DNA of 64,000 nt, from contig JAHBTB010000010.1 of the NCBI GenBank assembly GCA_019638795.1, positions 1-64,000 on the forward strand, read 5' to 3'. The stretch comes from Fimbriimonadaceae bacterium. GTDB taxonomy: Bacteria; Armatimonadota; Fimbriimonadia; Fimbriimonadales; Fimbriimonadaceae. The first letter of the stretch is position 1, and the number at the start of each line of letters is the position of its first letter. The notes beneath the pieces are model-generated. The model saw nothing but the letters and a program-made list of their open reading frames with translations, was not told the origin of the DNA and searched no databases. Positions 14,557 through 40,208 of this stretch are shown in pieces. The position numbers and the translations under genes are program-made.

Positions 14557-14557
14557 G

Positions 14558-17658: not shown

Positions 17659-18410
17659 GCGACGTCCGCGACCTTATGTCCCTCGACGGCCGGGTGGCGT
17701 TGGTCACCGGCGGGGACGGCCACTTGGGCCGGGTCGTCTGCACGACCTTACGCGGATTGGGTGCCCACGTCGTCGCCCTGGACCGCGCCGCCTCCGAGGG
17801 CGTCGTCGCCTGTGACTTGGCCGACCAGGGCGCCGTCGAAGCCGTCACCCGGCAGGTGACCGCCGACCACGGCCGGCTCGACGTCGTCGTCCATTGCGCC
17901 GCGTTTGTGGGCACCACCAAGCTGCCGGGATGGGCCGAACCGGCCGAGTCCCAGTCTGCCGAGGTCTGGGGGCAGGCCCTGGCCGTCAACGTCAGTTCGC
18001 TTTTCACCATCGTCCAGACCGCCCGGCCCTTCCTCGCCGCCAGTGGCAAGGGTTCAGTTGTGGCGGTGTCGTCGATCTACGGCAAGCACGGCCCCGACAT
18101 GCGCCTTTACGAAGGGACGTCGATGGGCAACCCGGCTGGATACGGGGTCACCAAGGGGGGCCTTGAGCAACTCGTCCGCCACATGGCGGTCACGATGGCG
18201 CCCGACGTCCGTGTCAACACGATCAGCCCCGGCGGCATCTTCCGCGGCCAGCCCAGCACCTTTGTGGAACGCTACGAGCAACGCACCCCCATGCGGCGTA
18301 TGGCCACCGAAGCCGACATGGCCGGTGCGGTCGCCTACCTTTGCACCGACCTTTCCCTCTACGTGACGGGGATCGACATCCCGGTGGACGGCGGCTGGGG
18401 GGCCTGGTGA
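17655..18410 (+). CDS. ptmA: SDR oxidoreductase (PtmA-like)
   Basis: 251 residues from the ATG at 17655, which overlaps the previous stop. It has a classical SDR pattern: VALVTGGDGHLGRVVC, the NAG-like VVHCAAFVG, VAVSSIYG and the catalytic YGVTKGG, ending YVTGIDIPVDGGWGAW. In Campylobacter, PtmA belongs to the legionaminic route supplying amino-sugar precursor. Here it sits between the CMP-transferase and the synthase, which supports the same role. The exact substrate is inference. Confidence 0.75.
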   Translation: MSDVRDLMSLDGRVALVTGGDGHLGRVVCTTLRGLGAHVVALDRAASEGVVACDLADQGAVEAVTRQVTADHGRLDVVVHCAAFVGTTKLPGWAEPAESQSAEVWGQALAVNVSSLFTIVQTARPFLAASGKGSVVAVSSIYGKHGPDMRLYEGTSMGNPAGYGVTKGGLEQLVRHMAVTMAPDVRVNTISPGGIFRGQPSTFVERYEQRTPMRRMATEADMAGAVAYLCTDLSLYVTGIDIPVDGGWGAW

Positions 18411-19411
18411 GCTGCTTCATCATCGCCGAGGCCGGGGTGAACCACAACGGATCGCTTGACTTGGCCATGAAGCTGGTCGACGTCGCCGCCGACTCTGGGG
18501 CGGACGCGGTCAAGTTCCAGACGTTCAGTGCCGACCGGCTGGTGACCAAATCGGCCCGCAAGGCGGCGTACCAGGCCGAGACCACCGGCGCGGGCAACCA
18601 ATACGAGATGCTCAAGGCCCTGGAACTGACCGCCGACGACTTCCGACAGCTCGCCCGCCACTGCCGCGAACGCCATGTCGAGTTCATGTCCACCCCGTTC
18701 GACCTGGAAGACGCCGACCTGCTCGCCGACATCGGCGTGCGGGCCTTCAAGACACCGAGCGGCGAACTGACCAACCTCCCCTATTTGGAGCACGTGGCGC
18801 GGAAAGGCAAGCCCATGTACGTCTCCACCGGCATGGCCGACCTCGGCGAGGTCGAACGCGCCGTCTCAGTGGTCCGCTCTGCCGGTAACGACGATCTCAC
18901 CCTGCTCCACTGTGTCAGTTCCTACCCGGCCCCGTTCGACCAGGTGAACCTCAACGCGATGGCGACGATGGAGTTGGCCTTTGGCGCACCTGTCGGGTTC
19001 AGCGACCACACCCAAGGCATCGAGGCGTGCGTGGCCGCCACCGCTGTCGGGGCCGCGTGTCTGGAAAAGCACTTCACCTTGGACCGGAGCCTGCCCGGAC
19101 CCGACCACCAAGCGTCGCTCGAGCCTGACGAGTTGAGGCGGCTGGTCACGGCGGTCAGGAATGTCGAGGCGGCCCTGGGCGACGGGGTCAAGCGACGGAT
19201 GCCGTGCGAAGAAGACACTGCGCGGGTCGCGCGCCGGAGCGTCACCCTGTCGCGTCCAGTAAGCTCCGGGCACGTACTGGGCGCAAGCGACCTTGTCCTA
19301 CGCCGCCCCGGCGACGGCGTCACGCCTGACCGGATGTCGGAATGCGTGGGGCGGACGGTCGCCCGTGACCTGCCCGAAGGAGCAACCCTCCAGTGGGCCG
19401 ACCTGAAATGA
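18407..19411 (+). CDS. legI: N-acetylneuraminate/legionaminate synthase
   Basis: 334 residues from the GTG at 18407, overlapping the previous stop (GTGA). The TIM-barrel start FIIAEAGVNHNGSLDLAMKL, DAVKFQTFSADRLVTK, KTPSGELTNLPYLEH, HCVSSYPAPF and ACLEKHFTLDRSLPGPDH are those of the NeuB family. A C-terminal SAF domain follows (about 275-334). It condenses a 6-carbon amino sugar with phosphoenolpyruvate to make the 9-carbon acid. An upstream ATG at 18341 lies inside the previous gene and is unlikely. Confidence 0.88.
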   Translation: MSCFIIAEAGVNHNGSLDLAMKLVDVAADSGADAVKFQTFSADRLVTKSARKAAYQAETTGAGNQYEMLKALELTADDFRQLARHCRERHVEFMSTPFDLEDADLLADIGVRAFKTPSGELTNLPYLEHVARKGKPMYVSTGMADLGEVERAVSVVRSAGNDDLTLLHCVSSYPAPFDQVNLNAMATMELAFGAPVGFSDHTQGIEACVAATAVGAACLEKHFTLDRSLPGPDHQASLEPDELRRLVTAVRNVEAALGDGVKRRMPCEEDTARVARRSVTLSRPVSSGHVLGASDLVLRRPGDGVTPDRMSECVGRTVARDLPEGATLQWADLK

Positions 19412-20547
19412 GGCGTGTCGGCGCGGTCACCGTCGCCCGGAGCGACTACGGGCTCTACACCCCGGTCTTTGACGAGGTCCTGGCGCGCGGCATGGACCTC
19501 GGCGTCGTGGCGGCCGCCGCCCACCTCAGCCCTCGGTTCGGCCACACCGTCGACCAGATCGTGGCCGACGGCTATCCGGTCGTCGAACGCCTCGACTTCA
19601 CGCCGGAAGACGACTCGCCGGCAGTGGTCGCGGCGGCGGCGGGCCGGGCCACCGCGATGTTCGCGGAAGCCTTCGCCCGCCAAGGGTTCGACATCCTCCT
19701 CCTGCTCGGCGACCGCTACGAAATGCACGCGGCGGGCGTGGCGGCCGTCCCCCTCTTGCTCCCCCTCGCCCACATCCACGGGGGAGAGGAGACCACGGGG
19801 GCGATCGACAACGTGTACCGGCACAGCCTGACCAAGCTGGCCCACCTTCACTTTGCCAGCACCGAGTCCCATGCCCGGCGCATCCGGCAAATGGGCGAGG
19901 AGGACTGGCGGGTGACCGTCAGTGGCGCCCCGGCGGTCGACCGCATCATGCGCGCCGGTCCGGTGCCCTTGGAACAGGTGGAGGCCCGACTGGGGCATGC
20001 GTTCCCAGAGGGTTCGGTCGTCGCGACGTTCCACCCCGTCACGACCGAGCCCGGTGAGGCCGAGAGTCAAGCGGAGACCTTCCTGCGCGCCCTCAAACGG
20101 TTTGGAAGGCCGGTCGTCTTGACCATGCCCAACGCCGACCCGGGCGGGCTGGCCGTGCGTCGTGTGGTGGCCCGATGGGCCGGGGAACCTTGGCTTCACA
20201 TCCACGAGAACTTGGGGGCCAAGTTCTATGTCGGCGTGATGTCCCATGCAGGGGTCATGGCGGGCAACTCCTCCAGCGGCATCATCGAGGCGGCGTCCTT
20301 TGGCCTGCCCGTCGTGAACGTCGGTGACCGCCAACAGGGCCGGGAGAGGAGTGGCAACGTCATCGACGTCCCATGTCAGGAAGAGCCCCTGCTCGCCGCC
20401 CTCCACCAGGCCGCCACAGACCCTGCGCTCAGGGGATGTCAGAACATCTACGGCGACGGCCAGGCGGCACGGCGCATCGTCGACGTTTTAGAGTCGGTCA
20501 CGCTGGGACCTGGACTCATCAAGAAGCCGTTTGTCGACCGTTTGTAA
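19408..20547 (+). CDS. legG: Hydrolysing NDP-sugar 2-epimerase (NeuC/LegG-like)
   Basis: 379 residues from the ATG at 19408 (MRRVGAVTVARSDYGLY). LLLLGDRYEMHAAGV, AHIHGGEETTGAIDN and GNSSSGIIEAASFGLPVVNV are the family signatures. The enzyme releases the nucleotide and inverts C2, giving the substrate of LegI. It overlaps LegI (ATGA). An internal 190-bp gap separates it from the next gene, so a second promoter is possible there. Confidence 0.88.
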   Translation: MRRVGAVTVARSDYGLYTPVFDEVLARGMDLGVVAAAAHLSPRFGHTVDQIVADGYPVVERLDFTPEDDSPAVVAAAAGRATAMFAEAFARQGFDILLLLGDRYEMHAAGVAAVPLLLPLAHIHGGEETTGAIDNVYRHSLTKLAHLHFASTESHARRIRQMGEEDWRVTVSGAPAVDRIMRAGPVPLEQVEARLGHAFPEGSVVATFHPVTTEPGEAESQAETFLRALKRFGRPVVLTMPNADPGGLAVRRVVARWAGEPWLHIHENLGAKFYVGVMSHAGVMAGNSSSGIIEAASFGLPVVNVGDRQQGRERSGNVIDVPCQEEPLLAALHQAATDPALRGCQNIYGDGQAARRIVDVLESVTLGPGLIKKPFVDRL

Positions 20548-20738
20548 GGGAAAGTCCTGGAACACCGGTGGCTTGTATGCCGTCCATCAGGTAAAGATTC
20601 ACTTATCGCCTTTGGCGGATGGTTTGACATGATTGGGATCGACGGTGGGAGGCCCGGCTATTTCCCGGGGGTGAGGCAATAGCTCGGCTTCGGAGTATCG
20701 ACAATATCGCGACGACGTCCACGTCGACGATCCGCGAT

Positions 20739-21752
20739 TTGCTCGGCATGATCAACCGGAACACCACGGGGATCGCCATCGTGGTGGACGCCGACCAGCG
20801 ACTCGTGCGCACGGTGACCGACGGTGACATTCGCCGCGCCATCCTCTCTGGGGCCCGACTGGACGTCCCGATCGCCAAGCTTCCCACCCACTTCCCGAGC
20901 CAAGTCGCCGTCACCGCCCGGCAGGGCACCAGCGACAAGGACATGCTCGCCCTGATGCGCGAGCGACAGGTGCAGCAGTTACCCGTCCTTGACGAGGATG
21001 ACCGCCTTGCCGGCGTCGTCACCATGCACGACCTCGTCCCGGAGCCTCCGCCGACGCTGGGGGCGGTGGTCATGGCGGGCGGCTTCGGCACCCGCATGCG
21101 GCCGCTGACGAGCGACCTCCCTAAGCCGATGTTGCCCATCGGCGACCGACCGCTGTTGGAGCGGATCGTCTCCCAACTGCGCGAGTCCGGCATCCGCGAA
21201 GTCAGCCTGACCACCCACTACCTGCCCGAGATCATCGAGGCCCACTTTGGGGACGGCAGCCAGTTTGGCGTGACGATCAACTACGTCAACGAACAGACCC
21301 CTCTCGGCACCGCGGGGGCCCTCCGGCTTCTGGACCGGCCCACCTTCCCGTTGCTCGTGATCAACGGTGACATCCTGACGAACGTCGATTTCCGCTGGAT
21401 GAAGCGGTTCCACGAGGAGCATCAGGCCGACCTCACCCTCGCCGTGCGCCCACATGAGACGACCATCCCATATGGCGTGGTCGAGACGGACGGCCCCATC
21501 CTCACCTCGCTTGTCGAGAAGCCGACGGTCCGCCACTTTGTCAACGCCGGCATTTATCTGCTCGGCGAGAGGGCGTTTGACCACATCGGCGACGACGGGC
21601 GCCTGGATATGACGCAGTTGGTGGACGCCATGCTCGCCGTCGGGCGGCGGGTCGCCACGTTCCCCCTTACCGAATACTGGATCGACATTGGCCAAATGAG
21701 TGACTACGAACGCGCCCAAACTGACTTCGCCAACGGGGTCATCGCCCTTTGA
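20739..21752 (+). CDS. ptmE: CBS-domain nucleotidyltransferase (PtmE-like)
   Basis: 337 residues from a TTG at 20739. Two CBS units (VVDADQRLVRTVTDGDIRRA; LPVLDEDDRLAGVVTMHDL) precede a sugar-nucleotidyltransferase domain with VVMAGGFGTRMRPLTSDLPK and INGDILTNVDF. In Campylobacter, PtmE makes the GDP-activated amino sugar used by the legionaminic pathway. CBS homology runs on upstream to about 20694 (SIDNIATTSTSTIRD) in the same frame. No ATG, GTG or TTG is found between there and the stop at about 20626, so the true start is unclear. Confidence 0.8.
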   Translation: MLGMINRNTTGIAIVVDADQRLVRTVTDGDIRRAILSGARLDVPIAKLPTHFPSQVAVTARQGTSDKDMLALMRERQVQQLPVLDEDDRLAGVVTMHDLVPEPPPTLGAVVMAGGFGTRMRPLTSDLPKPMLPIGDRPLLERIVSQLRESGIREVSLTTHYLPEIIEAHFGDGSQFGVTINYVNEQTPLGTAGALRLLDRPTFPLLVINGDILTNVDFRWMKRFHEEHQADLTLAVRPHETTIPYGVVETDGPILTSLVEKPTVRHFVNAGIYLLGERAFDHIGDDGRLDMTQLVDAMLAVGRRVATFPLTEYWIDIGQMSDYERAQTDFANGVIAL

Positions 21753-22732
21753 ACTGGTCAGGACGCCGCGTCTTGGTGACGGGGGCGGGCGGGTTCATCG
21801 GCAGCCATTTGGCCGAGCGGCTCGTCGAGGAAGGCGCGTCAGTCCGGGCCTTCGTCCACTACAACGGCGCGGGACGTCGAGGTTGGCTGGACAGTTCTCC
21901 ACATGCCGATGCGATGGAGTTTGTCGCCGGTGACGTCGCCGACCAAGAGTCGGTCTGGGCCGCCGTCAGCGGGTGTGACACCGTGTTCCACCTGGCCGCG
22001 TTGATCGCGATCCCCTACTCCTACGTCGCTCCCCGCTCCTACGTCCGGACCAACGTCGAGGGGACCCTGAACGTCATGGAGGCCTGTCGCCGACTCGACG
22101 TCGGCCGGGTCGTCCACACTTCGACGAGCGAGGTCTACGGCACTGCCCTCCACGTGCCCATCGACGAAGAACACCCCCTTCAGGGCCAGTCACCCTATTC
22201 GGCCAGCAAGATCGGGGCGGACAAGGTCGCCGAGTCCTACCACCTCTCCTTCGGCCTGCCCGTCGTCACGGTGCGGCCCTTCAACACCTACGGCCCGCGC
22301 CAGTCAGCCCGGGCGGTGATCCCCACGATCATCTCCCAGTGCCTTGCCGGGCAGACGGTCAAGCTGGGCAACCTCGACCCGACCCGCGACCTCAATTTCG
22401 TCACCGACACGGCGTCCGGGTTCCTCGCCGCCGCGTCGGCGGACAACGCCTCCGGCCAGACCTTCAATATTGGGACCGGCCGCGAGATCAGCATCGGCGA
22501 CCTCGCTCGCTTGATCGGTGAGATCGCGGGACGACCCGTCGACATCACGACCGACGCCCAGCGTGTCCGCCGCACCGGCAGTGAAGTCGAGCGGTTGCTG
22601 GCCGACACCACCAAGTCCAAGCGCGAACTCGGCTGGTCGTCCAAGGTCACTCTGGAGGAGGGGCTGGCGCGGACCATCGAATGGCTGCGTGCCAACCAGG
22701 GCCACTACCGCGCGGGTGTCTATGCCGTCTGA
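21749..22732 (+). CDS. legB: NAD-dependent sugar 4,6-dehydratase (LegB-like)
   Basis: 327 residues from a TTG overlapping the previous stop (TTGA). Extended SDR: VLVTGAGGFIGSHLAERL, VFHLAALIAIPYSY, HTSTSEVYG, catalytic YSASKIGADK and RPFNTYGPRQSARAVIPT. It is the first committed step, making a 4-keto-6-deoxy amino sugar. Position between the PtmE-like enzyme and the aminotransferase fits the GDP-linked legionaminic route. Confidence 0.88.
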   Translation: MNWSGRRVLVTGAGGFIGSHLAERLVEEGASVRAFVHYNGAGRRGWLDSSPHADAMEFVAGDVADQESVWAAVSGCDTVFHLAALIAIPYSYVAPRSYVRTNVEGTLNVMEACRRLDVGRVVHTSTSEVYGTALHVPIDEEHPLQGQSPYSASKIGADKVAESYHLSFGLPVVTVRPFNTYGPRQSARAVIPTIISQCLAGQTVKLGNLDPTRDLNFVTDTASGFLAAASADNASGQTFNIGTGREISIGDLARLIGEIAGRPVDITTDAQRVRRTGSEVERLLADTTKSKRELGWSSKVTLEEGLARTIEWLRANQGHYRAGVYAV

Positions 22733-23876
22733 GGCGTTGACCCGGGTCCCGCTCAGCGTCCCCGAGATCGGGGGCAACGAATGGGCCTATGTCAAGGAGT
22801 GCCTCGACACCGGCTGGGTCTCGTCGGCGGGGCCGTTCGTCGACCGGTTCGAGCGTGAGTTTGCCGCCAGGTTAGGAGTCAAGCACGCGGTCGCTTGCGC
22901 CAGCGGCACCGCCGCCCTCCATGTCGCCCTTATCTGCGCCGGGGTGAGGCCAGGCGACCTTGTCCTCACATCGACGGTGACCTTCATCGCGTCAGTCAAT
23001 TCGATCGTCTATTGCGGTGCCGAGGCCGTCCTGATCGACGCCGACCCACGTTCGTGGCAAATGGACGTTCCCGGCGTCGTCGCGTACCTCGAGACCCAAT
23101 GCGAGCGACGGGCCGACGGCCTGTATGAAAAGGCCTCGGGAGCCCGGGTCGGGGCCGTCATGCCCGTGCACATCCTTGGGTGCCCGGTCGATATGGACCC
23201 CCTCATGGAGGTCTGCGGCCGTCTCGGCGTCCCGGTCGTCGAGGACGCCACCGAGAGTCTGGGCGCCACCTACCGCGGCAAGAACGTCGGCACCCACGGG
23301 GTGTCCGCCTGCTTCAGCTTCAACGGTAACAAACTCCTGACCACCGGCGGGGGTGGCATGATCGTCACCGACGACGACGAGACCGCCCGAAGGGCGAAGC
23401 ACCTGACCACCCAGGCCAAGCTCGACGAAGTCGAGTTTGTCCATGACGAGGTCGGCTTCAACTACCGACTACCCAACGTGGCCGCCGCGATCGGCGTCGC
23501 CCAGTTGGAGCGTCTCGACGAGTTCCTCGCGACCAAGCGTCGGATCGCCGACACCTACACCCACGCCCTCGCCCCTCTGGGGTTTGAATCCCAAACACCG
23601 CCCGAAGGGGCCCACTCCGCATGGTGGCTCTACACCACCAAGGTGCCCTTCGAGTCGAGCCGCCCGGCGATGCGCGCCCTGCACGAGGCCGGTGTCCAGA
23701 CCCGCCCCTTGTGGCAACCCGCCCACCGCAGCCCCGCCCATCCCCGACTCCACCGGTTCGCCTGCCCTGTCGCCGACGAGCTCAACGCGAGGTGCCTGAG
23801 CCTGCCCTGCTCGGTGGGCCTTACCGAGGCCGACCAAGGGCGCGTCGTCGAAGTCCTCCGCAACCTCACTAGGTAG
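22722..23876 (+). CDS. legC: PLP-dependent sugar aminotransferase (LegC-like)
   Basis: 384 residues from the ATG at 22722, overlapping the end of LegB by 11 bases. DegT/DnrJ/EryC1 family: VACASGTAALHVAL, VEDATESLGATYRG and the lysine motif FSFNGNKLLTTGGGGM. The phrase PLSVPEIGGNEWAYVKECLD is typical of the LegC branch. It adds the C4 amino group that is then acetylated. An open frame continues 68 codons upstream inside LegB but lacks the family start. Confidence 0.9.
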   Translation: MPSEALTRVPLSVPEIGGNEWAYVKECLDTGWVSSAGPFVDRFEREFAARLGVKHAVACASGTAALHVALICAGVRPGDLVLTSTVTFIASVNSIVYCGAEAVLIDADPRSWQMDVPGVVAYLETQCERRADGLYEKASGARVGAVMPVHILGCPVDMDPLMEVCGRLGVPVVEDATESLGATYRGKNVGTHGVSACFSFNGNKLLTTGGGGMIVTDDDETARRAKHLTTQAKLDEVEFVHDEVGFNYRLPNVAAAIGVAQLERLDEFLATKRRIADTYTHALAPLGFESQTPPEGAHSAWWLYTTKVPFESSRPAMRALHEAGVQTRPLWQPAHRSPAHPRLHRFACPVADELNARCLSLPCSVGLTEADQGRVVEVLRNLTR

Positions 23877-23888
23877 ACTCCTCGACCA

Positions 23889-24875
23889 ATGGCGGGCGCC
23901 GGCGGGACATTGACTTCGGCCCCGGGACGCCGCTCGGCGCTCTCCGACTTCCATCTGTACGTCATTCTCGCGTCGGTTCTGTTCGTCGCGCTCAACCTGG
24001 TCCTCAAGAAGTCCATGTTCGCCATGGGCGTCCAAGACGGCTTCTTCATCCAGATCACCACGGTCCAGGACATGTGGATGAAGGACTCGCGCGAGATCTT
24101 CACCGACCCGCTCTACATCCTGCACTCGGTGCGGCTCGTCATCGTCAGCCCGTTCTTGCTCAGTTGGGTCCGCAACTGGCCACCGTTCCTTGAGTCCATC
24201 TTCCTCCTGCCGTTCCTCCTGCCGATCGCCCTGGCGAAGTTCAACGGCAAACAACACGTCGCCCAGCTTTGTGTCTTCCTCGTCCCCTACGCACTCAGCT
24301 TCCGGACCTCCCTGATCGTCTGCGGCTTCGCCTATCTCTATCTCCACCTGTTTTCCGACAAGCGGTCTCTTTGGTACTTCGTGATGAGCGCCCTCTTGTC
24401 GTTCCTGAGTTCCGGCGTCGCCCTTGCCTGGCTGATCGTGTTCTGGTTATGCCAGGCAAAGTTCAAGGTCGGCACATTCGCCAAGGCCACGACGTGTCTC
24501 ATCGTCGCCACCGGACTGACCTTTTCGGCAATCCAAAAGCTGGCGTTCTTCTCGGGTGACACCGTCGGCTACACCAAGTCAAAGGGGATCGCCGCGGCGA
24601 TCGAGCGCAACACGATCACGGTGAGCTACGTCGTGAACGACACACCAAGGTTCGCCGTCTATCTGCTCCTCGCCGCGTTCTCCGCCTTCTTCCTCTTCCT
24701 CTTGCTGAACAACCGGCGGACACCCAAGTTCTTGCTCTTGTTCTTCTTGGCCTCGGTCCCCGGATTCTTCTTCGAGGGCCTTTCCGTCGCCGCCTACATC
24801 ATGCCGATCGTGTGGGCGATGGTCGGGGCATACGTCGTCCAAACGAACGGCCCGTCGCCGGCCCTGCCGACATGA
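23889..24875 (+). CDS. Polytopic membrane protein, possible polysaccharide polymerase
   Basis: 328 residues with about eight or nine hydrophobic segments, among them LYVILASVLFVALNLVL, FLLPFLLPIALAKF, YALSFRTSLIVCGFAYLY and LLLFFLASVPGFFFEGL. There are no catalytic motifs that I recognise. Wzy-type polymerases are poorly conserved and usually look like this; no other Wzy candidate is in the locus. It overlaps the acyltransferase gene (ATGA) and follows LegC by 12 bp. The polymerase role is inference. Confidence 0.55.
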   Translation: MAGAGGTLTSAPGRRSALSDFHLYVILASVLFVALNLVLKKSMFAMGVQDGFFIQITTVQDMWMKDSREIFTDPLYILHSVRLVIVSPFLLSWVRNWPPFLESIFLLPFLLPIALAKFNGKQHVAQLCVFLVPYALSFRTSLIVCGFAYLYLHLFSDKRSLWYFVMSALLSFLSSGVALAWLIVFWLCQAKFKVGTFAKATTCLIVATGLTFSAIQKLAFFSGDTVGYTKSKGIAAAIERNTITVSYVVNDTPRFAVYLLLAAFSAFFLFLLLNNRRTPKFLLLFFLASVPGFFFEGLSVAAYIMPIVWAMVGAYVVQTNGPSPALPT

Positions 24876-25942
24876 ACAAGCCGAAGGCCAGGGTCGAGTC
24901 CGTCGACGTCTTGCGGGGGTTGTTCGCCGCCGCGATCATGGTCTATCACTCCCTGACGTGGACGGAGCTTGTCCATGCCGATTGGGGCACGCGGTTGCTC
25001 CACTTTGTCGGGATCTACGGCGTCGAAGCCTTTTTTATCATCTCGGGCTTCAGCATGGCCTACGTCTACGGCGGCAAGGACTTCAAGAAGCGGTCGACGT
25101 GGGCGGACTTCGGCCTGAAACGGTTCGCCCGGATCTGGCCGCTTTACGTCTGCGCGACTCTTGTGGCCACCACGTTTCGGCTCGTCCAGAAGAGCGACCA
25201 CGGCCTCGACCCCGCCAACCTGGCCCTGAACGCGACCCTTCTGTTTGGGTTCGTCGACCCGGCACGGTCGTCCATTGTCGGAGGTTGGTCGATCGGGGTC
25301 GAGATGGTGATGTACGCCCTGTTCCCGTTGCTCGTGCTTGCCCGGCAAGCCGGGCGGGCCCCGTTCGTCATCACGGTCGGGGCACTGGCCGGACTGTCCG
25401 CGTGGATGACTTCCCGACTCGACCCCGCCCTGCCCCTCGCCGACCAGTGGTCTGCCTATGTCCATGTCGCCAACCACGCCGTGCTCTTCGCCCTGGGCAT
25501 GGCGGTCGTCGACATCACGTCCGCGAGGACAAGTCAGACCTCCGCCAAACCCTGGCTGGGAACGGTCCTCGCCACCGCCCTTCTGGTCGCCCTCGCCCTT
25601 CTATTCGGTGGCACGGAAACCGCCGTGGTCACGGGATGGGCCCGGCTGCTTCTTGTCGCTTCAAGCCTCGCCCTCGTCATCGCAGTCGTGCCCGTCCCTG
25701 TCGGGCCTGGTCCACTTGGCAAAGCGGGCACGCGTTTGGGAGCACTCAGCTACGCCGTCTACCTGTTGCACCCGTTCGTCTTCAACGGGCTCAGGCTGGT
25801 GGCCAAGGGCTTGCCGGCTATGGCCTTGGTCGGCGCGACATGGCTCCTCACCCTTGTCCTCGCCCAAGCGGTCTACACCTACCTAGAGATGCCCGCCCAG
25901 AACTGGATCCGTCGACTGGGGACGGCTAGATCGGCGCCATAA
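24872..25942 (+). CDS. Membrane acyltransferase (Acyltransf_3 / OafA family)
   Basis: 356 residues from the ATG at 24872. It begins RVESVDVLRGLFAAAIMVYH with the family histidine, then VGIYGVEAFFIISGFSMAYV, KRFARIWPLYV and VGGWSIGVEMVMYALFPL. About ten membrane spans. It probably O-acetylates the surface glycan. It is the last plus-strand gene of the cluster; its end overlaps the end of asnB on the other strand by 17 bp. Confidence 0.88.
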   Translation: MNKPKARVESVDVLRGLFAAAIMVYHSLTWTELVHADWGTRLLHFVGIYGVEAFFIISGFSMAYVYGGKDFKKRSTWADFGLKRFARIWPLYVCATLVATTFRLVQKSDHGLDPANLALNATLLFGFVDPARSSIVGGWSIGVEMVMYALFPLLVLARQAGRAPFVITVGALAGLSAWMTSRLDPALPLADQWSAYVHVANHAVLFALGMAVVDITSARTSQTSAKPWLGTVLATALLVALALLFGGTETAVVTGWARLLLVASSLALVIAVVPVPVGPGPLGKAGTRLGALSYAVYLLHPFVFNGLRLVAKGLPAMALVGATWLLTLVLAQAVYTYLEMPAQNWIRRLGTARSAP

Positions 25943-27743
25943 GGGCGTCGACATCGACCGGCGCGGAACCGTCAGAGTCGAGGAACGTGCGGCACCACAG
26001 TTCGAAGGCCACAAGCTGGCGGATTTCGCGCGTGTGGTTGGCCGAGCCCCCTTCGTGACGCGCCAAAACGTCAGTGACCGTCTGTTGGTCGAAGACCCCC
26101 CGGTCGAGGAACGGCCCCTCGGTCAGGAGGGTACGGGTCAATGGCCGCAGGGTGTCCTTGAACCATTCGCCGATCGGTACCGTGAACATGCGCTTCTTGC
26201 GGTCGGTCAGGGTCGGCCCGAGCAAGTCTCGCACTGCCTCCTTGTACGCCCACCGCGTCACATTGCCCTGCAGCTTGAGGTCACCCGGCACCTGGAAGGC
26301 AAACTCGGCCAGGGCCCGGTCCAGGAACGGTTCACGTGCCTCCAGCGATACCGCCATCGCCATGCGGTCGGGCTTGACCAAGTTGTTCCCCGGCAGGAGG
26401 AGGGCGACGTCCAACCACATGGCTTGGTTGCGCCGGTCCCAATGCGGCACCTGGTCAAGGGCGGCCCGGGTCACCGTCCGGGTGTCCCAGTCCGACGCCA
26501 CCCGCCGCTGGGCCGGAGAGTAGAGCGACCTCTTCAGGTCCTCGGTGAAGAGGGAGATGTGGTCGTGGTACGTGTCGCCAAACTGGCGGTCACTGAGCCC
26601 AGCGACGTCCTTGACGAAGAAGTCGGTGTACTTCTCATAACCCCCGAACAACTCGTCGCCACCGTCCCCGGTCAGCACCATCTTGACGTGTTCCACCGCC
26701 AGTTGGGAAAGGCGCATCGTCGGCAAGAACGAAACGTCGCTGTGAGGCTGGTCGCAGTGGTAAACCGCCTTCGCCCAGTCGGCGACGATCTCCGGCCCGA
26801 CAAAGTCCAGGGTGTGGTCGGTGGCGAACCGGTCCGACGCCTGCCGCGCGTATTCGCTCTCGTCAAACCGCTCGTCGTGAAAGCCGATCGAAAACGTCCT
26901 CACCGGCTTGTCGGTGTGGCGGCCCATCAAACCGACGACTGTGCTGGAGTCCAGGCCGCCGGAAAGGAACGCGCCGAACGGCACGTCGGCGCGCATCCGG
27001 ATCTCGACCGAACGGCTCAGCAATGACTGGAACGTGTCCTTGAACTCGTCGATGGTCCAGGGGCGTTGCTCCTGCTTGGTCAGGTCCCACCAGCGCCTGA
27101 CCTCGGTCTTGTGCGCCGAGACCTCGATCAGGCAACCGGGCATCAGATGCCTGACACCCTTGAACAGCGTCCATGGCGCGGGAACGTAGCCGTAGCTCAG
27201 GTAGTGGTGGAGGGCCTCGTCGTCCATCTGCCGGGGCACCCCGGCCCGCAGCAGTGATTTGATCTCCGAGGCGAAGAGCACCCGGTCGCCGTCGTCGGCC
27301 AGGAAAAGCGGCTTGACCCCGATGGGGTCGCGGGCGACGAGCATGGTCCCCGTCCGCCGGTCCGCGACCGCTATCGCGAACATGCCGCTCAGCTTGTCGA
27401 GGAACGCGGCACCGTGGCGGAGGTAGAGGTGGAGCAACACTTCGGTGTCGCTGTGGGTGCGGAACACGACGCCGGCCGCCGCCAATTCTCGACGCAACTC
27501 CACGTAGTTGTAGATTTCCCCGTTCTGGACGACCGACACCGCCCCGTCGTCACTGAAGAAAGGTTGGTCGCCGCCCTCGACGTCGATGATCGCCAGGCGC
27601 ATGTTCCCGACGGCGCACGCCCCCCGGTGGTCCTCGCCGCGTCCGTCCGGCCCCCGGTGGCGTAGGGAGACAGCCATGTCGTCCACCAATGCCTGGGGCA
27701 TCCCCCTCCCCTTGCGGTCAAAGTAGCCGTAAACGCCGCACAT
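25926..27743 (-). CDS. asnB: Glutamine-hydrolysing asparagine synthase (AsnB-type amidotransferase)
   Basis: 605 residues. Cys2 in MCGVYGYF is the glutaminase nucleophile; RLAIIDVEGGDQPF and QNGEIYNY follow. The synthetase half has the pyrophosphate loop FLSGGLDSSTVVGLMG and LTGDGGDELFGGYEK. In polysaccharide loci such enzymes often amidate uronic-acid or other carboxylate groups rather than aspartate. It is last in the minus-strand operon, six bases after the sugar transferase. Confidence 0.88.
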   Translation of the reverse strand: MCGVYGYFDRKGRGMPQALVDDMAVSLRHRGPDGRGEDHRGACAVGNMRLAIIDVEGGDQPFFSDDGAVSVVQNGEIYNYVELRRELAAAGVVFRTHSDTEVLLHLYLRHGAAFLDKLSGMFAIAVADRRTGTMLVARDPIGVKPLFLADDGDRVLFASEIKSLLRAGVPRQMDDEALHHYLSYGYVPAPWTLFKGVRHLMPGCLIEVSAHKTEVRRWWDLTKQEQRPWTIDEFKDTFQSLLSRSVEIRMRADVPFGAFLSGGLDSSTVVGLMGRHTDKPVRTFSIGFHDERFDESEYARQASDRFATDHTLDFVGPEIVADWAKAVYHCDQPHSDVSFLPTMRLSQLAVEHVKMVLTGDGGDELFGGYEKYTDFFVKDVAGLSDRQFGDTYHDHISLFTEDLKRSLYSPAQRRVASDWDTRTVTRAALDQVPHWDRRNQAMWLDVALLLPGNNLVKPDRMAMAVSLEAREPFLDRALAEFAFQVPGDLKLQGNVTRWAYKEAVRDLLGPTLTDRKKRMFTVPIGEWFKDTLRPLTRTLLTEGPFLDRGVFDQQTVTDVLARHEGGSANHTREIRQLVAFELWCRTFLDSDGSAPVDVDALMAPI

Positions 27744-27749
27744 GCGTGC

Positions 27750-28304
27750 CTAGTATCCCCCGCGCGAGACAACCTGCTTCACCGTCAGGGCCAATATCTT
27801 GAAGTCAAGGGCCAATGACGGTGCCTCGGCGTACTCCAGGTCCGCGGCCAGCCGTTCCTGGGGTGTGGCGGTGCTCCGCTTGGTCGCTTGGGCAAGACCG
27901 GTGATGCCGGGCCTCACGCTGCACCGCTTTTGCCATTCTTCGGGGGTGTAGTCGGCCTCTTGCGCCGGGGTGTCCGGCCGCGGCCCGACCAGGCTCATGT
28001 CGCCGACCAGAACGTTCCAGAACTGGGGCAGTTCGTCCAGGCTGGTCTTGCGCAGGATCCGTCCCGCCCGCGTGATCCGGGCGTCGCCCACGGACGTGCG
28101 GTGCGATCCTTTCTTGTCCGCGTCCGAGACCATGCTACGGAACTTGAGGATCGTGAACACGCGCCCCCCCTTACCGACGCGCCTTTGGCGGTAGAACGGC
28201 CCGCCAGGGCTGTCTAGGGAAACCCATACCGCCAGCAACACCATCAAGGGAAACAGCAACACCAAAAAAAACGTGCTGCAGACAATGTCAAACAGTCTCT
28301 TCAA
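27750..28304 (-). CDS. Initiating sugar-phosphate transferase (PglC/WcaJ catalytic domain)
   Basis: 184 residues from a TTG at 28304 (LKRLFDIVCSTFFLVLLF). One re-entrant membrane segment, then FTILKFRSMVSDADKKG, the catalytic SLDELPQFWNVLVGDMSLVG followed by PRPDTP, and RPGITGLAQ. It moves a sugar phosphate onto undecaprenyl phosphate to start the repeat unit. It is the short, monotopic form. The start lies inside the end of the aldolase gene (17-bp overlap). Confidence 0.88.
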   Translation of the reverse strand: MKRLFDIVCSTFFLVLLFPLMVLLAVWVSLDSPGGPFYRQRRVGKGGRVFTILKFRSMVSDADKKGSHRTSVGDARITRAGRILRKTSLDELPQFWNVLVGDMSLVGPRPDTPAQEADYTPEEWQKRCSVRPGITGLAQATKRSTATPQERLAADLEYAEAPSLALDFKILALTVKQVVSRGGY

Positions 28305-29154
28305 CGCGGCTCCGCCGCTCGGCACGCCTCCGGTCCGCGACGTCCTGGACGACCGAGCACAACCGGGCCCGGTCAAGGGCGATCTGTTCCGCCGACCGCT
28401 CGAAATGCAGGGCCAGGGCGTCTCGCACCTTTCGGACTTCGGTTTCTAAGTCTAGACCACCAGGAAGGTCTTCCAGACGCTTCGCACCGCCAAAAAACGC
28501 GCGGGAAAGGATCACGATCGACGAGCCGGTGCGGGCGTGCTCGCCCAGGACCAACTCGGCGGGAAGCTCACCGCTGCCGACCCGGCTGACGCCGCCGAAT
28601 CCGAACGGCTTGCCGGCCGCCTTGGCCTCGCTCGCCATCAAGTCAACCAGGCCACCCGACAACACCTCGAACAAGAAGTCGAGCCCCAGGGCGAGGTGGA
28701 GGTCGTTGAGGCCAAAGTAGACCTCGTCCAAACCGTCGGTCCTCACCACCGACCTCAGGCGGGTCATCGCCGCCGGGGTCTCCACCAAAGCGATGGTCCG
28801 CGCCCGCCCCCCGACCGCGTCGACAAACGACCGGACTTCCTCGGAGGTCGTGAACATCGGCAACATGACGGTGTCCGCCCCGGCCCGCACCACCTCGTCG
28901 ATCTGCTGCGCCGACTGGTCGTGCCACGGGTCCACCCGGACCAGCAACTGGCCCTCGTCCACGGCCTCGCGGATCCGGACGACGTCGGCCAAGGTGTGGC
29001 GGCTGATCACCGTGTCCAGGTGACCCTGCCGCTCGGTCTTCCCCAAAAACTCCAGGTCAACGAAGATCCGGTCCACCCCGGCGTCGGCCGCCACCCGGGC
29101 CAGGCCAGGGTCGGCGGTGATCATCATCAGCCGCATCTGTCGTTCCTGTGTCAT
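28288..29154 (-). CDS. HpcH/HpaI aldolase / citrate lyase family protein
   Basis: 288 residues: GVDRIFVDLEFLGKTERQG, ISRHTLADVVRIREAV, VRAGADTVMLPMFTTSEEV, IALVETPAAMTRL and LDEVYFGLNDLHLALG. These include the metal-binding Glu and Asp positions of the family. It would make or split a C-C bond with pyruvate or a related keto acid. Genes on both sides overlap it (flippase upstream by ATGA, transferase downstream), so it belongs to the glycan operon, an unusual setting. Confidence 0.8.
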   Translation of the reverse strand: MTQERQMRLMMITADPGLARVAADAGVDRIFVDLEFLGKTERQGHLDTVISRHTLADVVRIREAVDEGQLLVRVDPWHDQSAQQIDEVVRAGADTVMLPMFTTSEEVRSFVDAVGGRARTIALVETPAAMTRLRSVVRTDGLDEVYFGLNDLHLALGLDFLFEVLSGGLVDLMASEAKAAGKPFGFGGVSRVGSGELPAELVLGEHARTGSSIVILSRAFFGGAKRLEDLPGGLDLETEVRKVRDALALHFERSAEQIALDRARLCSVVQDVADRRRAERRSRVEETV

Positions 29155-30659
29155 CTGTTACCTTTCAGCTTGCCCTTGATGGTCCACAAAAGCTTGCCCC
29201 TCGTGTCGACGTCTGTGGTCAAACCGACGGCTCCGGCGACGACCCCGATGACGACCGAACCGAGCACGCCGACCACGGCGGGCCCGTGCATCGAGCGCAG
29301 CGGCCACGCCAGTGCGACGAACACGAGGCCCGTCACCGCCGCCTGGACGACAGGGGTTTTACCAAAGACCGCCTGGAAGAGGTCGGCCCCGTGCCGGCGC
29401 CGGGCCACGGCGAGCAAGGACACCAACATCGCCCAGTGCACTCCGGCGGTCACCCACGCGAGGCCCGGCAGGTTGCCTTGTTGGACGGCAATGGCCGAGA
29501 GCCCGCAGGTCGCGAGCAGTCCAGCCCCGGTCACGACCAACGGCGTGGCCATGTCGCGCAACGAGTCGAAGACGGTCAAGACCAACGTGTTGAGCGCCTG
29601 GGGCAACAGACCGACCATCAGCACCGCGGCAAACATGCCGATGGGCGCGGTCTCCGCCGGGGTCATCTTGCCGTGCCCGTAAAGAAGCCGCGCCCAATCC
29701 AGAGCGAAGAACCCCATGCCGAGCGCGATCGGCAGACCGAGCGAGAAGACCACGCGGAGCCCTTGGGAAGCCAGGACGAGCCCGTCCTGGCGCGTCTCCG
29801 TGATGGCGAGCCGTTCGGCGACCACGGGAAAGAGGGCGACGCTCACCGATGTCAGGGCGACCCCCAAGGGCAGGTCCACCAGCTTGCTGGCGAGGTGCGC
29901 CAACGTCATCCCGCCGTCCCCGAAACGCGACGCGAACGACCGCAGGACCACCGGCATGGTCAAGAGCATCACCCCCGCCCCAAGGGCCTGGAAGAACCGA
30001 AGGACCATGCTTCGTCCGATCAGCCACCGCGCGTCTCCCCCCGGTTGGCGGTACTTTCGGGCCGGAGAGAGTTGCACGGCCAAGCCCAGGCACGCGCCGA
30101 CCACGACCGCGACCGACACGGCTTGGAGCCGGAACACCGAGCCAAAGGCCAAGGCGACGACAAGGGCCAGGTTGTAGAGGAACGACGAGACGGCCGGCGG
30201 GCCGAACCGGTCGTGGCTCTGCAGGAACGCCCTGCTCACCGCCACCATCGCCGTGACGGGCACCGCCCACAGGCAGGTGGCGACCAGCGGACGCGCGGTG
30301 GCCATCGCACTTTCGGCGACGCCCGGAGCGACGATCCGGACCACCCAGGCCGATCCCAACGAGAGCACCAGGGTCAAGGCGACCGCCATGCCCAAGACAA
30401 GCCGGGTGGCCTGGACATACAGTTGCCATGCCTCTTGGGGAGGACGACGTTTGAACTCCGGGATCAGCGCGGCGCCGATCGCGCCGCCGACGAGGATCGC
30501 CAAGAGAGCGTCGGGGACGGTCATCACCAGGACGGCGACGTCGGCCTGCACCGTCCGACCGAACATGGCGGAGACGAGCAGGTCGCGGACAAAGCCCAAG
30601 AGCCGCCCGGCGAGGACACCGCCAAAGACGACGAGCCCCGCCCGGACGTGACGGCTCAT
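29151..30659 (-). CDS. MurJ/MVF-family lipid-linked oligosaccharide flippase
   Basis: 502 residues with about 13-14 hydrophobic segments. VFGGVLAGRLLGFVRDLLVS at the N-terminus, DALLAILVGGAIGAALIPEF and FLQSHDRFGPPAVSSFLYN are MurJ signatures. Placed inside the polysaccharide operon it may serve as the Wzx-like flippase rather than as the lipid II flippase; a second murJ elsewhere would support this. ATGA overlaps on both sides. Confidence 0.82.
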   Translation of the reverse strand: MSRHVRAGLVVFGGVLAGRLLGFVRDLLVSAMFGRTVQADVAVLVMTVPDALLAILVGGAIGAALIPEFKRRPPQEAWQLYVQATRLVLGMAVALTLVLSLGSAWVVRIVAPGVAESAMATARPLVATCLWAVPVTAMVAVSRAFLQSHDRFGPPAVSSFLYNLALVVALAFGSVFRLQAVSVAVVVGACLGLAVQLSPARKYRQPGGDARWLIGRSMVLRFFQALGAGVMLLTMPVVLRSFASRFGDGGMTLAHLASKLVDLPLGVALTSVSVALFPVVAERLAITETRQDGLVLASQGLRVVFSLGLPIALGMGFFALDWARLLYGHGKMTPAETAPIGMFAAVLMVGLLPQALNTLVLTVFDSLRDMATPLVVTGAGLLATCGLSAIAVQQGNLPGLAWVTAGVHWAMLVSLLAVARRRHGADLFQAVFGKTPVVQAAVTGLVFVALAWPLRSMHGPAVVGVLGSVVIGVVAGAVGLTTDVDTRGKLLWTIKGKLKGNR

Positions 30660-31852
30660 CGCGCCCTTTGCAAGACCAATTCGTCAGCGAGCTCCGCGAC
30701 CCGGTCGGCGGCCGAGCCCAACGGCGGGAACGGCAGGTCGCCGACGACCGGACGGGCGACATGGGCGTCGAGGAGTTCGAGGCAATGGTCGAGGTCCCGC
30801 GCCCAATGGCCCGCGCCGACGGACGGGTAGTCGATGGGCCCGGCGGATACTGGAAGGTCGACCTGGACCAGCAACTTGCCCATCAACGCGGCCTGCAAAC
30901 CCACTGTCGACGACACCACGACGACCGCGTCGACCGCCTTGAGGAGGGCGGCAAGGTCGTCGTCACGCCCACTGGTCTCGATGCCTGGGTCAAGGGCGTC
31001 GGCCCCCGACCTCTCGTTGGGGTGGGGCCGGTAGACCATCCGCCACCCAGGGCGGGTGCTGACCGCTTTGGCCAAGGTGCGGGCGATCTTGGCTCCCCAG
31101 TCAGGGTCGGTCGGCTCGGGTTGGGACGCCCACAGGATGACCTTGTCCTGCCCCCAACCCTTACTCTCCCGCAAGTGGGCGGCGTCCACGGCGACCTGTG
31201 GCCCGCCCATCTCGTCAAACGCGGGGTTACCCGTCACGACGACTTCTTCCGGCTGTCGCCCGGCGTCGATCAACGCCTTGCGGACGAGGTCGGCGAGCAC
31301 ACACACCTTGGTGCCGTAACCGGGGCGGCGCAAACGGCTTTCATTGCCGCAGACCATAAGGTCGAGCACGACGACAGACGGGACTCCCGCCTCCGCGGCG
31401 ACTTCAATCGCGGCCTGCTCTGACCGGGGGCTGTTCGTCGCCAAGACGAGGTCCGGCTGCACCTTGTCGATGACCCGCCGCATGAACCGCTTCGGCAGGA
31501 ACGCCTGACGTCGATTGCTGGCATAGAGGGAAGCGGCCCGCTCGGCGCCATGGTCGGCCACGAGTTCGGAGTAGCAGATCCCCAGGTAGGCCTCTGTCTC
31601 ACCCGGGCGCACGTCCGGATGAGGAGGATGCCCGGCGGCCAGGCGCTTTCCGGTCTCCAGGGCCTCCGCGTCACCGGGTTCGATGAAATCGACGTAACCC
31701 AGGCTGCTGATACCTTTGCGGGCCAAGAGGCCGGCCGCCGTTGTCAACGCCATGACGACGACCTCGTGACCGCGTTCGACCAGCTTGGGCACGACGCTGG
31801 CGACGATCTGGGCGTGGCCCGCGCCATAGGTGACGCACAAGACACGGCTCAT
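30656..31852 (-). CDS. GT-B-fold glycosyltransferase, candidate nonulosonate transferase
   Basis: 398 residues. The N-terminal VLCVTYGAGHAQIVASVVPK resembles GT-B enzymes. The C-terminal half has VTGNPAFDEMGG, the HP motif in WRMVYRPHPNERSG and VVVSSTVGLQAALMGK. HP and S-S/T motifs are shared by bacterial sialyltransferases and CDP-glycerol-type transferases. As the only clear glycosyltransferase in a locus that makes a CMP-nonulosonate, it is the best candidate to transfer it. The donor is inference. Confidence 0.65.
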   Translation of the reverse strand: MSRVLCVTYGAGHAQIVASVVPKLVERGHEVVVMALTTAAGLLARKGISSLGYVDFIEPGDAEALETGKRLAAGHPPHPDVRPGETEAYLGICYSELVADHGAERAASLYASNRRQAFLPKRFMRRVIDKVQPDLVLATNSPRSEQAAIEVAAEAGVPSVVVLDLMVCGNESRLRRPGYGTKVCVLADLVRKALIDAGRQPEEVVVTGNPAFDEMGGPQVAVDAAHLRESKGWGQDKVILWASQPEPTDPDWGAKIARTLAKAVSTRPGWRMVYRPHPNERSGADALDPGIETSGRDDDLAALLKAVDAVVVVSSTVGLQAALMGKLLVQVDLPVSAGPIDYPSVGAGHWARDLDHCLELLDAHVARPVVGDLPFPPLGSAADRVAELADELVLQRAR

Positions 31853-33096
31853 CTCTTTCGGCCCTTCCTGACCGCCACGACCGAGCCGATGAACCCGCCC
31901 AGCACGAGCCCGGCAAGCATGTTCAGTCCGTATTTTTTGTTGACCGGCTCCTCAAGCAAGTAGGGCTCGTCCAGCACCGACCACTGCAACTTCTCGACCT
32001 TGTTGCGGACATCCTCCTGACGGAACGCGGCGAGGGTGGACTCGTAAGCCGAGTTTGTCGTCCGAATGTCGCTGAGCAACGACCGGTACCGACGGGCTTC
32101 CTCGGGGGCGACCTTGGCCCGCTCGGCCGCGTCTTCGGCCAACCAGCGGGTCGTCAGCTCGGCAGCAAAGAGGGCGGCGGCCGACTCGTCGATCCCCTTT
32201 TGGACCGATGTCACCTTCGCCTGCACTTCTTGTTTGATGGAGTTCTGGGTGAACCGAAGGTTGTCCTCGGCGTCCTTGACCTGCTGGGTACCCGGTTGGT
32301 ACCGCGCCCGCGCGGCGTCCAGGTTGTAGCGCGCCTTGAGCAGGTCCTTGCGCCAGTCGGCGATCTGCGAGTCCCCCGTCGGCAGGTTCAGGTCCATCGC
32401 CTGGCCGATCTTGGCCGCTTGCGTGATCTTCGCCTGCAGGTTCCGGCGGGCCCCTTCATGTTCGATACGGGCCGACTCCGCACGGCGCAGGTACTCCGAG
32501 CCGGTGAAGTCCTCGGTCGAGGAGGGCGAGGTCTTGGCGGTCTTCTGGAACTCCGCCAGCCGAGCTTGAGCCTGGTCAAGCGCGGTCTTGTTGGCTTCGA
32601 CCTCCTTGGCTAGGTCGCTGCTGATGCGGTCGCTGACATTGAAGAGGAGGCGCTGGTCCAATTGCTTGAGCCGGTCCAGTACGGCGACCACCGCGGCCAG
32701 GGTCTTCTTGTCTGAATATCCGCGGAAGGCGACTTCGAGTTGCCGTCTTTCGGGCATCTCGTTGATGTCCATCGAGTTCTCGACGTCTTTGACTCTGACC
32801 TCGGCCTTCTCCGAGATCAGTTTCCGCATGTCGTGGCTCTTCACCACGCCGCCGAGATACTGGACGTCGCTGGACGTGTTGATCGCCAATTGGACGATGG
32901 TCCCCGCACCGGTGCTCTGGGCCCGGGGGAAAAGGACAGAAAACCGTGCCTCGTACAAGGGCGGGACGATGAATGTGAAGAGCCCGACCAACAAACACAG
33001 GCCAAGGGCGACGCTCCCGACCAACTTCCACGATCGCAGGAGTATGTGAAGCGTGTCGCTGACGTCGATCACGTCTTCCGTCGGCGTCGCGGCCAT
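31849..33096 (-). CDS. Wzz/GumC-type chain-length determinant
   Basis: 415 residues from the ATG at 33096 (MAATPTEDVIDVSDTLHILL). First membrane span LVGSVALGLCLLVGLFTFIV, a periplasmic part with long coiled coil (residues 180-330, for example LAKEVEANKTALDQAQARLA), and a last span near the C-terminus (GLNMLAGLVLGGFIGSVVAV). There is no kinase domain. It controls chain length or export with the Wza-like protein. It heads the minus-strand operon that ends with asnB. The gene at 33146 diverges 49 bp away. Confidence 0.85.
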   Translation of the reverse strand: MAATPTEDVIDVSDTLHILLRSWKLVGSVALGLCLLVGLFTFIVPPLYEARFSVLFPRAQSTGAGTIVQLAINTSSDVQYLGGVVKSHDMRKLISEKAEVRVKDVENSMDINEMPERRQLEVAFRGYSDKKTLAAVVAVLDRLKQLDQRLLFNVSDRISSDLAKEVEANKTALDQAQARLAEFQKTAKTSPSSTEDFTGSEYLRRAESARIEHEGARRNLQAKITQAAKIGQAMDLNLPTGDSQIADWRKDLLKARYNLDAARARYQPGTQQVKDAEDNLRFTQNSIKQEVQAKVTSVQKGIDESAAALFAAELTTRWLAEDAAERAKVAPEEARRYRSLLSDIRTTNSAYESTLAAFRQEDVRNKVEKLQWSVLDEPYLLEEPVNKKYGLNMLAGLVLGGFIGSVVAVRKGRKR

Positions 33097-33145
33097 GACC
33101 CGGTATTTTAACCTTAACCCCGGGTGGGCAGGTAGGATTCCTCCC

Positions 33146-33952
33146 ATGTCGCGGGTCAAGGTTTTATGCCTCGCCAGCTTGTTGTCCCCTTCGGCGTTGG
33201 CCTTGGCCCAATTCGGCGGGTCTGGTGAGTTCCCCAGCTTTCGGAACATGTCCGCCCTCCCCGGATCCGGGTTTGGCGTGACCGCCCGGGGCCAAGCCGG
33301 GTTTCGTGGCGCGATGGCCTATTCGACACCGGTCGCCTACGCCCTCGCGCCGTGGGAAGTGGTGACGGGTATGACGATCGTCTCCCACGACTGGGGGTTT
33401 GCCTTTCAGGACGCTTCAAGTGGCGACTCGACCTCAGGGAACGGCTCGGTGCAACTCCAGTTCGGGCTACCCGTGGGCAAGTTCGGCGCCCTGTCTTACG
33501 GTGTCCTCGTCAAGAGTTCCCACGGCGACAATTCGGGAACGGTCCAATGGACTCCTCCCGGCCAGTCGGGACCGGTCCGCTTTGCCATCGGCGTGCAGGA
33601 CTGGCGAGGGCGGGGCGGCTCGTCGGGGTTTGGCCAGCCCGACGACCGGGCGTGGTCCCGGTCGGTCTATGCAGTGGGCACCTGGCAGGCCCTCGACGAC
33701 ACCTACGTCACCCTGGGTTACGGCGACCAGCACCGCTTTCGTGGTGTCTTCGGCAGCGCCAGCCACGCCGTCACGCCCCGCCTGAAAGCGGTCGCGGAGT
33801 ACGACACGTTCAACTGGAACTGGATCGTCGCCTATGACCTAGGCAAAGTGGCGGGCCCCGTGATGAAAGACCGGCGTCCCGTCCAGGTCGTCGCCTTTGT
33901 CGGCCAAGAAGCGGGCAAGTTCGGGTTGTGGGGATTCAACGTCCGGTTCTAA
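33146..33952 (+). CDS. Secreted, probably outer-membrane beta-barrel protein
   Basis: 268 residues from the ATG at 33146. Signal peptide VKVLCLASLLSPSALALA, likely cleaved before QFGG. The mature part alternates polar and hydrophobic residues with aromatic strand ends (AMAYSTPVAYALAPWEVVTG, RSVYAVGTWQALDDTYVTLG, FNWNWIVAYDLG) and ends WGFNVRF, with a terminal aromatic as in outer-membrane barrels. It recalls YjbH-like exopolysaccharide-associated barrels in part. Divergent from the Wzz gene. Function unknown. Confidence 0.6.
   Translation: MSRVKVLCLASLLSPSALALAQFGGSGEFPSFRNMSALPGSGFGVTARGQAGFRGAMAYSTPVAYALAPWEVVTGMTIVSHDWGFAFQDASSGDSTSGNGSVQLQFGLPVGKFGALSYGVLVKSSHGDNSGTVQWTPPGQSGPVRFAIGVQDWRGRGGSSGFGQPDDRAWSRSVYAVGTWQALDDTYVTLGYGDQHRFRGVFGSASHAVTPRLKAVAEYDTFNWNWIVAYDLGKVAGPVMKDRRPVQVVAFVGQEAGKFGLWGFNVRF

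Positions 33953-34104: not shown

Positions 34105-34179
<75 letters not shown>

Positions 34180-38695: not shown

Positions 38696-40208
<1,513 letters not shown>

Follow-up and report, generated by a model that had tools for sequence, protein, structure and literature searches.

Gene organisation of the locus

The window analysed here is a stretch of 64,000 nucleotides from a Fimbriimonadaceae bacterium (assembly GCA_019638795.1, contig JAHBTB010000010.1, positions 1 to 64,000). Its minus strand carries, head to tail, genes for a MurJ-like flippase, an aldolase of the HpcH/HpaI superfamily, an initiating phosphoglycosyl transferase (PGT) and an AsnB-type glutamine-dependent amidotransferase (Table 1). 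The aldolase gene overlaps the flippase gene by 4 bases. Its overlap with the PGT gene is 89 bases if the PGT starts at its first TTG codon and 17 bases if it starts at the TTG at 28304; the latter is the probable true start, as it matches the 184-residue PGTs of two relatives. The gap between the PGT and AsnB genes is 6 bases. An earlier, sequence-only reading of the window had described both overlaps and the close spacing of AsnB, and the coordinates bear all of this out. The identical gene order was found again in relatives from other genera, and the neighbourhood is therefore not a matter of chance. The aldolase family is best known from the catabolism of nutrients. Because relatives of the aldolase in many phyla are located beside the chain-initiating enzyme or are fused to it, its role here is probably to make an unusual sugar decoration and not to degrade a substrate.

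Table 1. Genes of the aldolase module and of the surrounding glycan locus (window coordinates).
Feature	Position	Strand	Evidence and remarks
FlmA/CapD-type UDP-GlcNAc 4,6-dehydratase	12700..14580	-	PF02719, E up to 1e-30; PseB model 188 bits, below its cut-off of 407.75
Legionaminic-acid-type set (Gfo/Idh, cytidylyltransferase, PtmA-like SDR, NeuB, NeuC, PtmE-like, LegB, LegC)	15983..23876	+	NCBIfam profiles, bits (cut-off): LegC 444.7 (420), NeuB 447.7 (399.65), NeuC 362.5 (235.9); LegB 449, under its cut-off of 475; the name PtmE is our assumption
Membrane acyltransferase (Acyl_transf_3)	24812..25942	+	Pfam; convergent with AsnB
AsnB-type glutamine-dependent amidotransferase, 605 aa	25926..27743	-	Pfam Asn_synthase, 311 bits
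PGT, initiating sugar transferase	27750..28376	-	Bac_transf (PF02397, phosphoglycosyl transferase), 220.7 bits, cut-off 27
Aldolase (ALDO), HpcH/HpaI superfamily, 288 aa	28288..29154	-	Pfam HpcH_HpaI (PF03328), 49.2 bits, gathering cut-off 25, E = 5e-13
MurJ-like flippase	29151..30659	-	Pfam MurJ, 155.5 bits
Glycosyltransferase/UDP-GlcNAc-2-epimerase-like protein (GTepi)	30656..31852	-	Weak Pfam matches below cut-off; frequent companion of the module
Wzz-like chain-length protein	31849..33249	-	Pfam Wzz, 25.7 bits, cut-off 25.5

All three motifs that we take to be meaningful in a PGT were located in the transferase, namely KFR, DELPQ (at 114; presumably catalytic) and GPRP. The amidotransferase belongs to the glutamine-hydrolysing asparagine synthase family (TIGR01536, asn_synth_AEB; 444.6 bits, cut-off 267.1) and contains Cys2 (MCG start) and an SGGLDS loop at 261. 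As with the AsnB amidotransferases of XrtA/PEP-CTERM and exopolysaccharide loci, it lies near PGT genes. Unlike the XrtA/PEP-CTERM amidotransferase, it stays under the cut-off of TIGR03108 (494.8 against 816.9 bits), and the AsnBs found at the aldolase's side form a clade apart from five control AsnBs, which may or may not be of the XrtA type. The flippase falls short of the lipid II flippase MurJ equivalog (TIGR01695, 183.7 against 235.55 bits) and is best described, from its sequence, as MurJ-like only.

The aldolase protein

The aldolase is a member of the HpcH/HpaI aldolase/citrate lyase superfamily, but none of the NCBIfam models for named enzymes scores it above cut-off; the HpaI model (TIGR02311) reaches 25.4 of the 368.8 bits required. 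A named aldolase is thus ruled out by profile, and the protein is, as judged by these scores, a divergent HpcH/HpaI protein. The closest sequence of known structure is YfaU (phmmer, E = 5e-4). An AlphaFold model computed from 62 input sequences has a mean predicted local distance difference test score of 96.1. The Foldseek matches of this model include pyruvate kinases as well as HpcH/HpaI aldolases and citramalyl-CoA lyases, the best E for the aldolases and lyases being about 1e-10; in VIA-align, pyruvate kinases are found at Z of about 20, which places them in the same barrel superfamily and carries no functional claim.

Asp33, Glu35, Lys39, Arg42, Gln43, Arg73, Glu125, Asn150, Asp151, Glu205, His206 and Arg218 are invariant in the 62 sequences. 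Glu125 and Asp151 are aligned with the YfaU Glu and Asp that we take to be metal ligands, and Arg73 is presumably the pyruvate-binding arginine. The aldolase therefore resembles the class II pyruvate aldolases HpaI, YfaU and GarL in its barrel fold and in the aligned acidic pair, but it lies far below every named model. Aldolases of the HpaI/YfaU/GarL type sit in catabolic operons, whereas the window aldolase sits in a glycan operon, and a GKxxRQ loop stands where we would expect the EHxP-type motif of HpaI-like enzymes. The CitE/citramalyl-CoA lyase group is represented among the top Foldseek matches at about 20% identity (9nzb, 8khl), and a DLE motif followed by Lys and Arg is a feature that we assume to be shared with it. 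In contrast to that group, neither a CoA ligase nor a thioester gene is named in the annotation of the neighbours or in the 25 families listed for them.

Distribution

We scanned 84,980 species genomes and obtained 399 relatives of the aldolase, the best 80 of which were used in our analyses. Armatimonadetes and Fimbriimonadaceae are among the nearest ones, and the best 80 span Armatimonadota, Pseudomonadota, Nitrospinota, Bacillota, Bacteroidota, Planctomycetota and others. In the phylum-level sample, 20 of 291 genomes gave matches, 12 of them at E < 1e-30. Evenly drawn samples from two classes contained the aldolase in 7/369 and 20/391 genomes, each count including the sample's own centre genome; the class names clostridial and gammaproteobacterial used below are our reading, based on G291 and G292. 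The sequence-only reading had suggested looking for the aldolase-transferase pair in other polysaccharide loci. It is found across phyla; uniqueness to one genome, which that reading had named as part of what would refute it, is accordingly rejected, as is a chance gene neighbourhood. On two plasmids of the Roseobacter group the order is DegT-AsnB-aldolase-NeuB (the order of locus L023), and the records annotate the aldolase merely as 'aldolase/citrate lyase family protein'.

No viral carrier of the aldolase was confirmed in one scan of viral contigs. A phage collection gave a single match, the faecal scaffold MT835705.1 ('Bacteriophage sp.', without annotation), which contains a PGT-aldolase pair and may be bacterial rather than phage. 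In another genome (G167, locus L033, 6982-11673) the MurJ-like, aldolase and AsnB genes are each in pieces, and the module seems to be decaying.

Gene neighbourhood and the partner slot

Clusters of neighbouring proteins among 86 loci include PGT (59), AsnB (31), the MurJ-like flippase (30), the glycosyltransferase/epimerase-like protein (29), FlmA (22) and LegC (22). The aldolase gene itself was counted in 75 of the 86 loci; the other 11 are fusions that fell into other clusters or genes missed by greedy picking of open reading frames. The 75 loci contain one contig twice (L030 and L072). A reduced set, which drops L030 and L112 (a near relative of L096), comprises 73 loci, of which 28 are of the AsnB type, 29 of the keto-acid type and 16 of neither.

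A PGT is found no more than five genes from the aldolase in 56/75 loci and is directly adjacent in 35. Within the same distance there is AsnB in 29 loci, a D-2-hydroxyacid dehydrogenase in 16, a class IV aminotransferase in 10 (accompanied by a LysA-like decarboxylase in 8) and a malate/lactate-type dehydrogenase in 3, and no locus has two of these four partners together (0/75). Glutamine-synthetase-like proteins form a cluster near the aldolase-AsnB module in three AsnB-type loci (L048, L052 and L064; the L052 member was checked), possibly as an extra amide-forming step.

The aldolase also occurs as part of larger proteins. We found two PGT-aldolase fusions (L070, L083), a PGT-GT4-aldolase fusion (L086), a GT4-aldolase fusion (L107) and a fusion of the aldolase to the LysA-like decarboxylase (L106), in which an aminotransferase gene comes next. 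PglB-type proteins of Neisseria are PGTs fused to an enzyme that acylates the PGT's own sugar. The fusions described here similarly join a PGT to an enzyme that would finish the donor sugar, but the partner is an aldolase rather than an acetyltransferase or ATP-grasp domain. In L039 and the similar L040 (10016-11908; genomes G170 and G171), the aldolase takes the place of the membrane half of a 4,6-dehydratase and is fused in front of the catalytic half. The dehydratase motifs are intact in L039, the copy that was checked.

Control comparisons and phylogeny

A separate test set of 22 loci was compared with control PGTs; L151, L154 and L156 had been dropped from it as copies of L099, L096 and L100. 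The controls are short PGTs picked by hand in genomes that gave no aldolase match. Some of these genomes were used twice, and the anchor was present in 58 of the 60 regions fetched. Within 7.5 kb, the three keto-acid enzymes were found near 11/16 clostridial aldolases and 0/38 control PGTs of the same class (p = 5e-8). In gammaproteobacteria, the aminotransferase with decarboxylase was found near 1/6 aldolases and 0/20 controls. MurJ-like flippases accompany 3/6 aldolases against 0/20 controls in gammaproteobacteria and 0/16 against 1/38 in the clostridial sample, and LegC is scarcer near gammaproteobacterial aldolases than near controls (0/6 against 13/20).

In a quick tree of the aldolases, in which 27 of 74 inner branches are weak, all 28 AsnB rows fall inside one set of 33 rows (Shimodaira-Hasegawa-like approximate likelihood ratio test, 99), together with three rows without a partner and two fusions. 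Among the other 44 rows, the three remaining partners interchange, with 12, 7 and 2 changes, of which 7, 3 and 2 are forced by well-supported branches. The AsnB and PGT trees were made with FastTree. In the former, 35 of 37 aldolase-side AsnBs form one clade (support 98) that holds none of the control AsnBs, just five of which passed the length filter. L079 and L080 each contribute one AsnB outside the clade, a second copy; in both loci the copy adjoining the PGT is inside it. The PGTs at the aldolase's side are likewise clustered, with 12 changes against 47.8 in shuffled data.

Interpretation

We propose that the aldolase is biosynthetic and that its product is an alpha-keto acid destined for the glycan's first sugar; AsnB would amidate this product in the window lineage, and it would be reduced or transaminated elsewhere. 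We put the probability of this reading at about one half. The aldolase would represent a dedicated subfamily working forwards, in synthesis. The metal-held pyruvate-enolate chemistry of the superfamily would create a C-C bond and give an alpha-keto acid, probably a 4-hydroxy-2-keto acid, formed on, or for use with, the sugar that the adjoining PGT handles. In the window lineage a dedicated AsnB would then use glutamine-derived ammonia to turn this carboxylate into a carboxamide. Other lineages would use the same slot for a D-type or L-type 2-keto-acid reductase, or for an aminotransferase, which a decarboxylase may accompany. That two unrelated families of keto-acid reductases and a transaminase share one place in the gene order points to an alpha-keto acid as the product. 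We infer the direction of the aldolase, its substrates and product, and the order of the steps from gene order, fusions, the one-of-four partner pattern, conserved residues and the near-exclusive AsnB clade.

The sequence-only reading had already proposed a biosynthetic role in a glycan, with AsnB amidating a carboxylate, and this part fits the neighbours. Its idea of a keto-acid decoration is strengthened, since neighbours outside the AsnB lineage are often keto-acid enzymes. The acyl decoration and the pyruvyl-derived group that it offered as alternatives are not borne out.

Several observations weigh against our proposal. Of the 75 loci, 17 have none of the four partners within five genes of the aldolase, and 6/22 loci of the test set show none of them. 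Partner exclusivity is only local, as the full 20 kb of L055 contain AsnB as well as the aminotransferase. In 3/75 loci and in L161 the D-dehydrogenase is accompanied by a distant relative of AsnB, which scores 37.6 bits against TIGR01536 and has no Pfam match at 1e-5. G170 and G171 have kept the aldolase, and no match to the module-type AsnB was found in them. The profile hidden Markov models for the partners were built from aldolase neighbours. AsnB was found near 4/6 gammaproteobacterial aldolases and 5/20 control PGTs, which is not a significant difference (p 0.14); because of these controls without an aldolase, the presence of AsnB alone is weak evidence, and the near-exclusive AsnB clade is the better evidence. 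The active site also raises a question. The general-acid histidine of HpaI, which we take to be His45 in the DGEH motif, would correspond to residue 36 of the aldolase, an equivalence that we read by eye and not from a tool's alignment. Residue 36 is a histidine in just 1/62 sequences, and the alignments obtained do not extend across this loop. The catalytic histidine of HpaI thus seems to be absent, and the proton-transfer part of the site rebuilt. To our knowledge, no activity has been measured for any member of this aldolase subfamily.

Could the aldolase act directly on a nucleotide sugar? It might add pyruvate to the 4-keto carbon of the UDP-6-deoxy sugar made by the FlmA/CapD-type dehydratase and so produce a branched sugar, whose side chain would be tailored in the partner slot (by amidation, D- or L-reduction, or transamination with or without decarboxylation) before the PGT loads it onto the lipid carrier. 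We consider this unlikely, although the aldolase-dehydratase fusion, which is the sole PF02719 match in G170 and G171, speaks for it. FlmA lies within five genes of the aldolase in 12/29 keto-acid-type loci, where no acyl ligase recurs; a branched sugar needs no ligase because the acceptor is already on the sugar, whereas a free keto acid would need one. PF02719 dehydratases were found in 35/35 aldolase genomes tested (35 of the 42 strongly matching genomes, those left out being G001, G122, G153, G167, G173, G310 and G779), but they were also found in 35/39 control genomes. FlmA is not enriched beside aldolases either (3/16 against 6/38 in the clostridial sample, 1/6 against 9/20 in gammaproteobacteria). 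We have therefore rejected FlmA enrichment and genome-level dehydratase presence as support for a branched sugar, since they do not separate the groups. Ketone acceptors are, moreover, rare in the HpcH/HpaI superfamily. The dehydratase of the window is the only PF02719 match in its genome.

It is equally doubtful that the aldolase makes a small free hydroxy-keto acid, which would undergo amidation, reduction or transamination before its attachment as an acyl group to an amino sugar or hydroxyl. An Acyl_transf_3 protein is encoded in the window, and 80 neighbours picked from 128 in non-AsnB loci included six matches to Acyl_transf_3 (counted at aldolase loci only) and three to ATP-grasp_3. The glutamine-synthetase-like cluster of three AsnB-type loci would also suit such a scheme, as would three legionaminic loci of the Acetivibrio type (L096, L112, L153) in which FlmA, the aldolase and the PGT are followed by an ATP-grasp protein of the D-Ala-D-Ala ligase type; these loci have none of the four partners. 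Against an acyl decoration, no cluster of ligases or acyltransferases recurs in at least 4 of the 29 keto-acid-type loci, although strict clustering would split distant ligases. Less likely still, the two enzymes may have separate tasks and merely share an operon, the aldolase serving a nonulosonic-acid branch and AsnB amidating a uronic acid. The gene order on the Roseobacter-group plasmids, the legionaminic genes adjoining the window module and the occurrence of AsnB near PGTs without an aldolase are consistent with this, but 35 of the 37 aldolase-side AsnBs form a clade of their own, and just 3/75 loci have a same-strand NeuB no more than five genes away. Least probable in our view is a new use of the aldolase fold in a helper protein that is non-catalytic or has a degradative (retro-aldol) activity and might, for instance, clear a wrong nucleotide sugar. 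The apparent loss of the presumed HpaI histidine would fit a helper, but the metal and arginine positions are fully invariant and the partner enzymes look biosynthetic.

The aldolase is a widespread, glycan-linked variant of a known superfamily, and in the open-access literature searched we recognised no paper describing such an aldolase in a glycan locus. If the proposed synthesis of an alpha-keto acid is correct, these widespread genes mark glycan loci whose first sugar has a C-C-linked or keto-acid-derived group, and the exchangeable partner slot would allow the product to be predicted from the neighbours. An aldol step would also be added to the known chemistry of bacterial sugar making.

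Other features of the window

The 16S rRNA gene at 38696-40207 (minus strand) is the only match to an rRNA family in the 64 kb. Two tRNA-Gly genes stand side by side at 34018-34091 and 34105-34179, with the anticodons tcc and ccc. A 4-kb stretch of low G+C content (52-53%) is flanked by genes for two small proteins at 379-1077 (minus strand, 232 residues) and 6751-7416 (plus strand, 221 residues). Both proteins begin with a common stretch, GGLSGSSGP, and may be paralogues.

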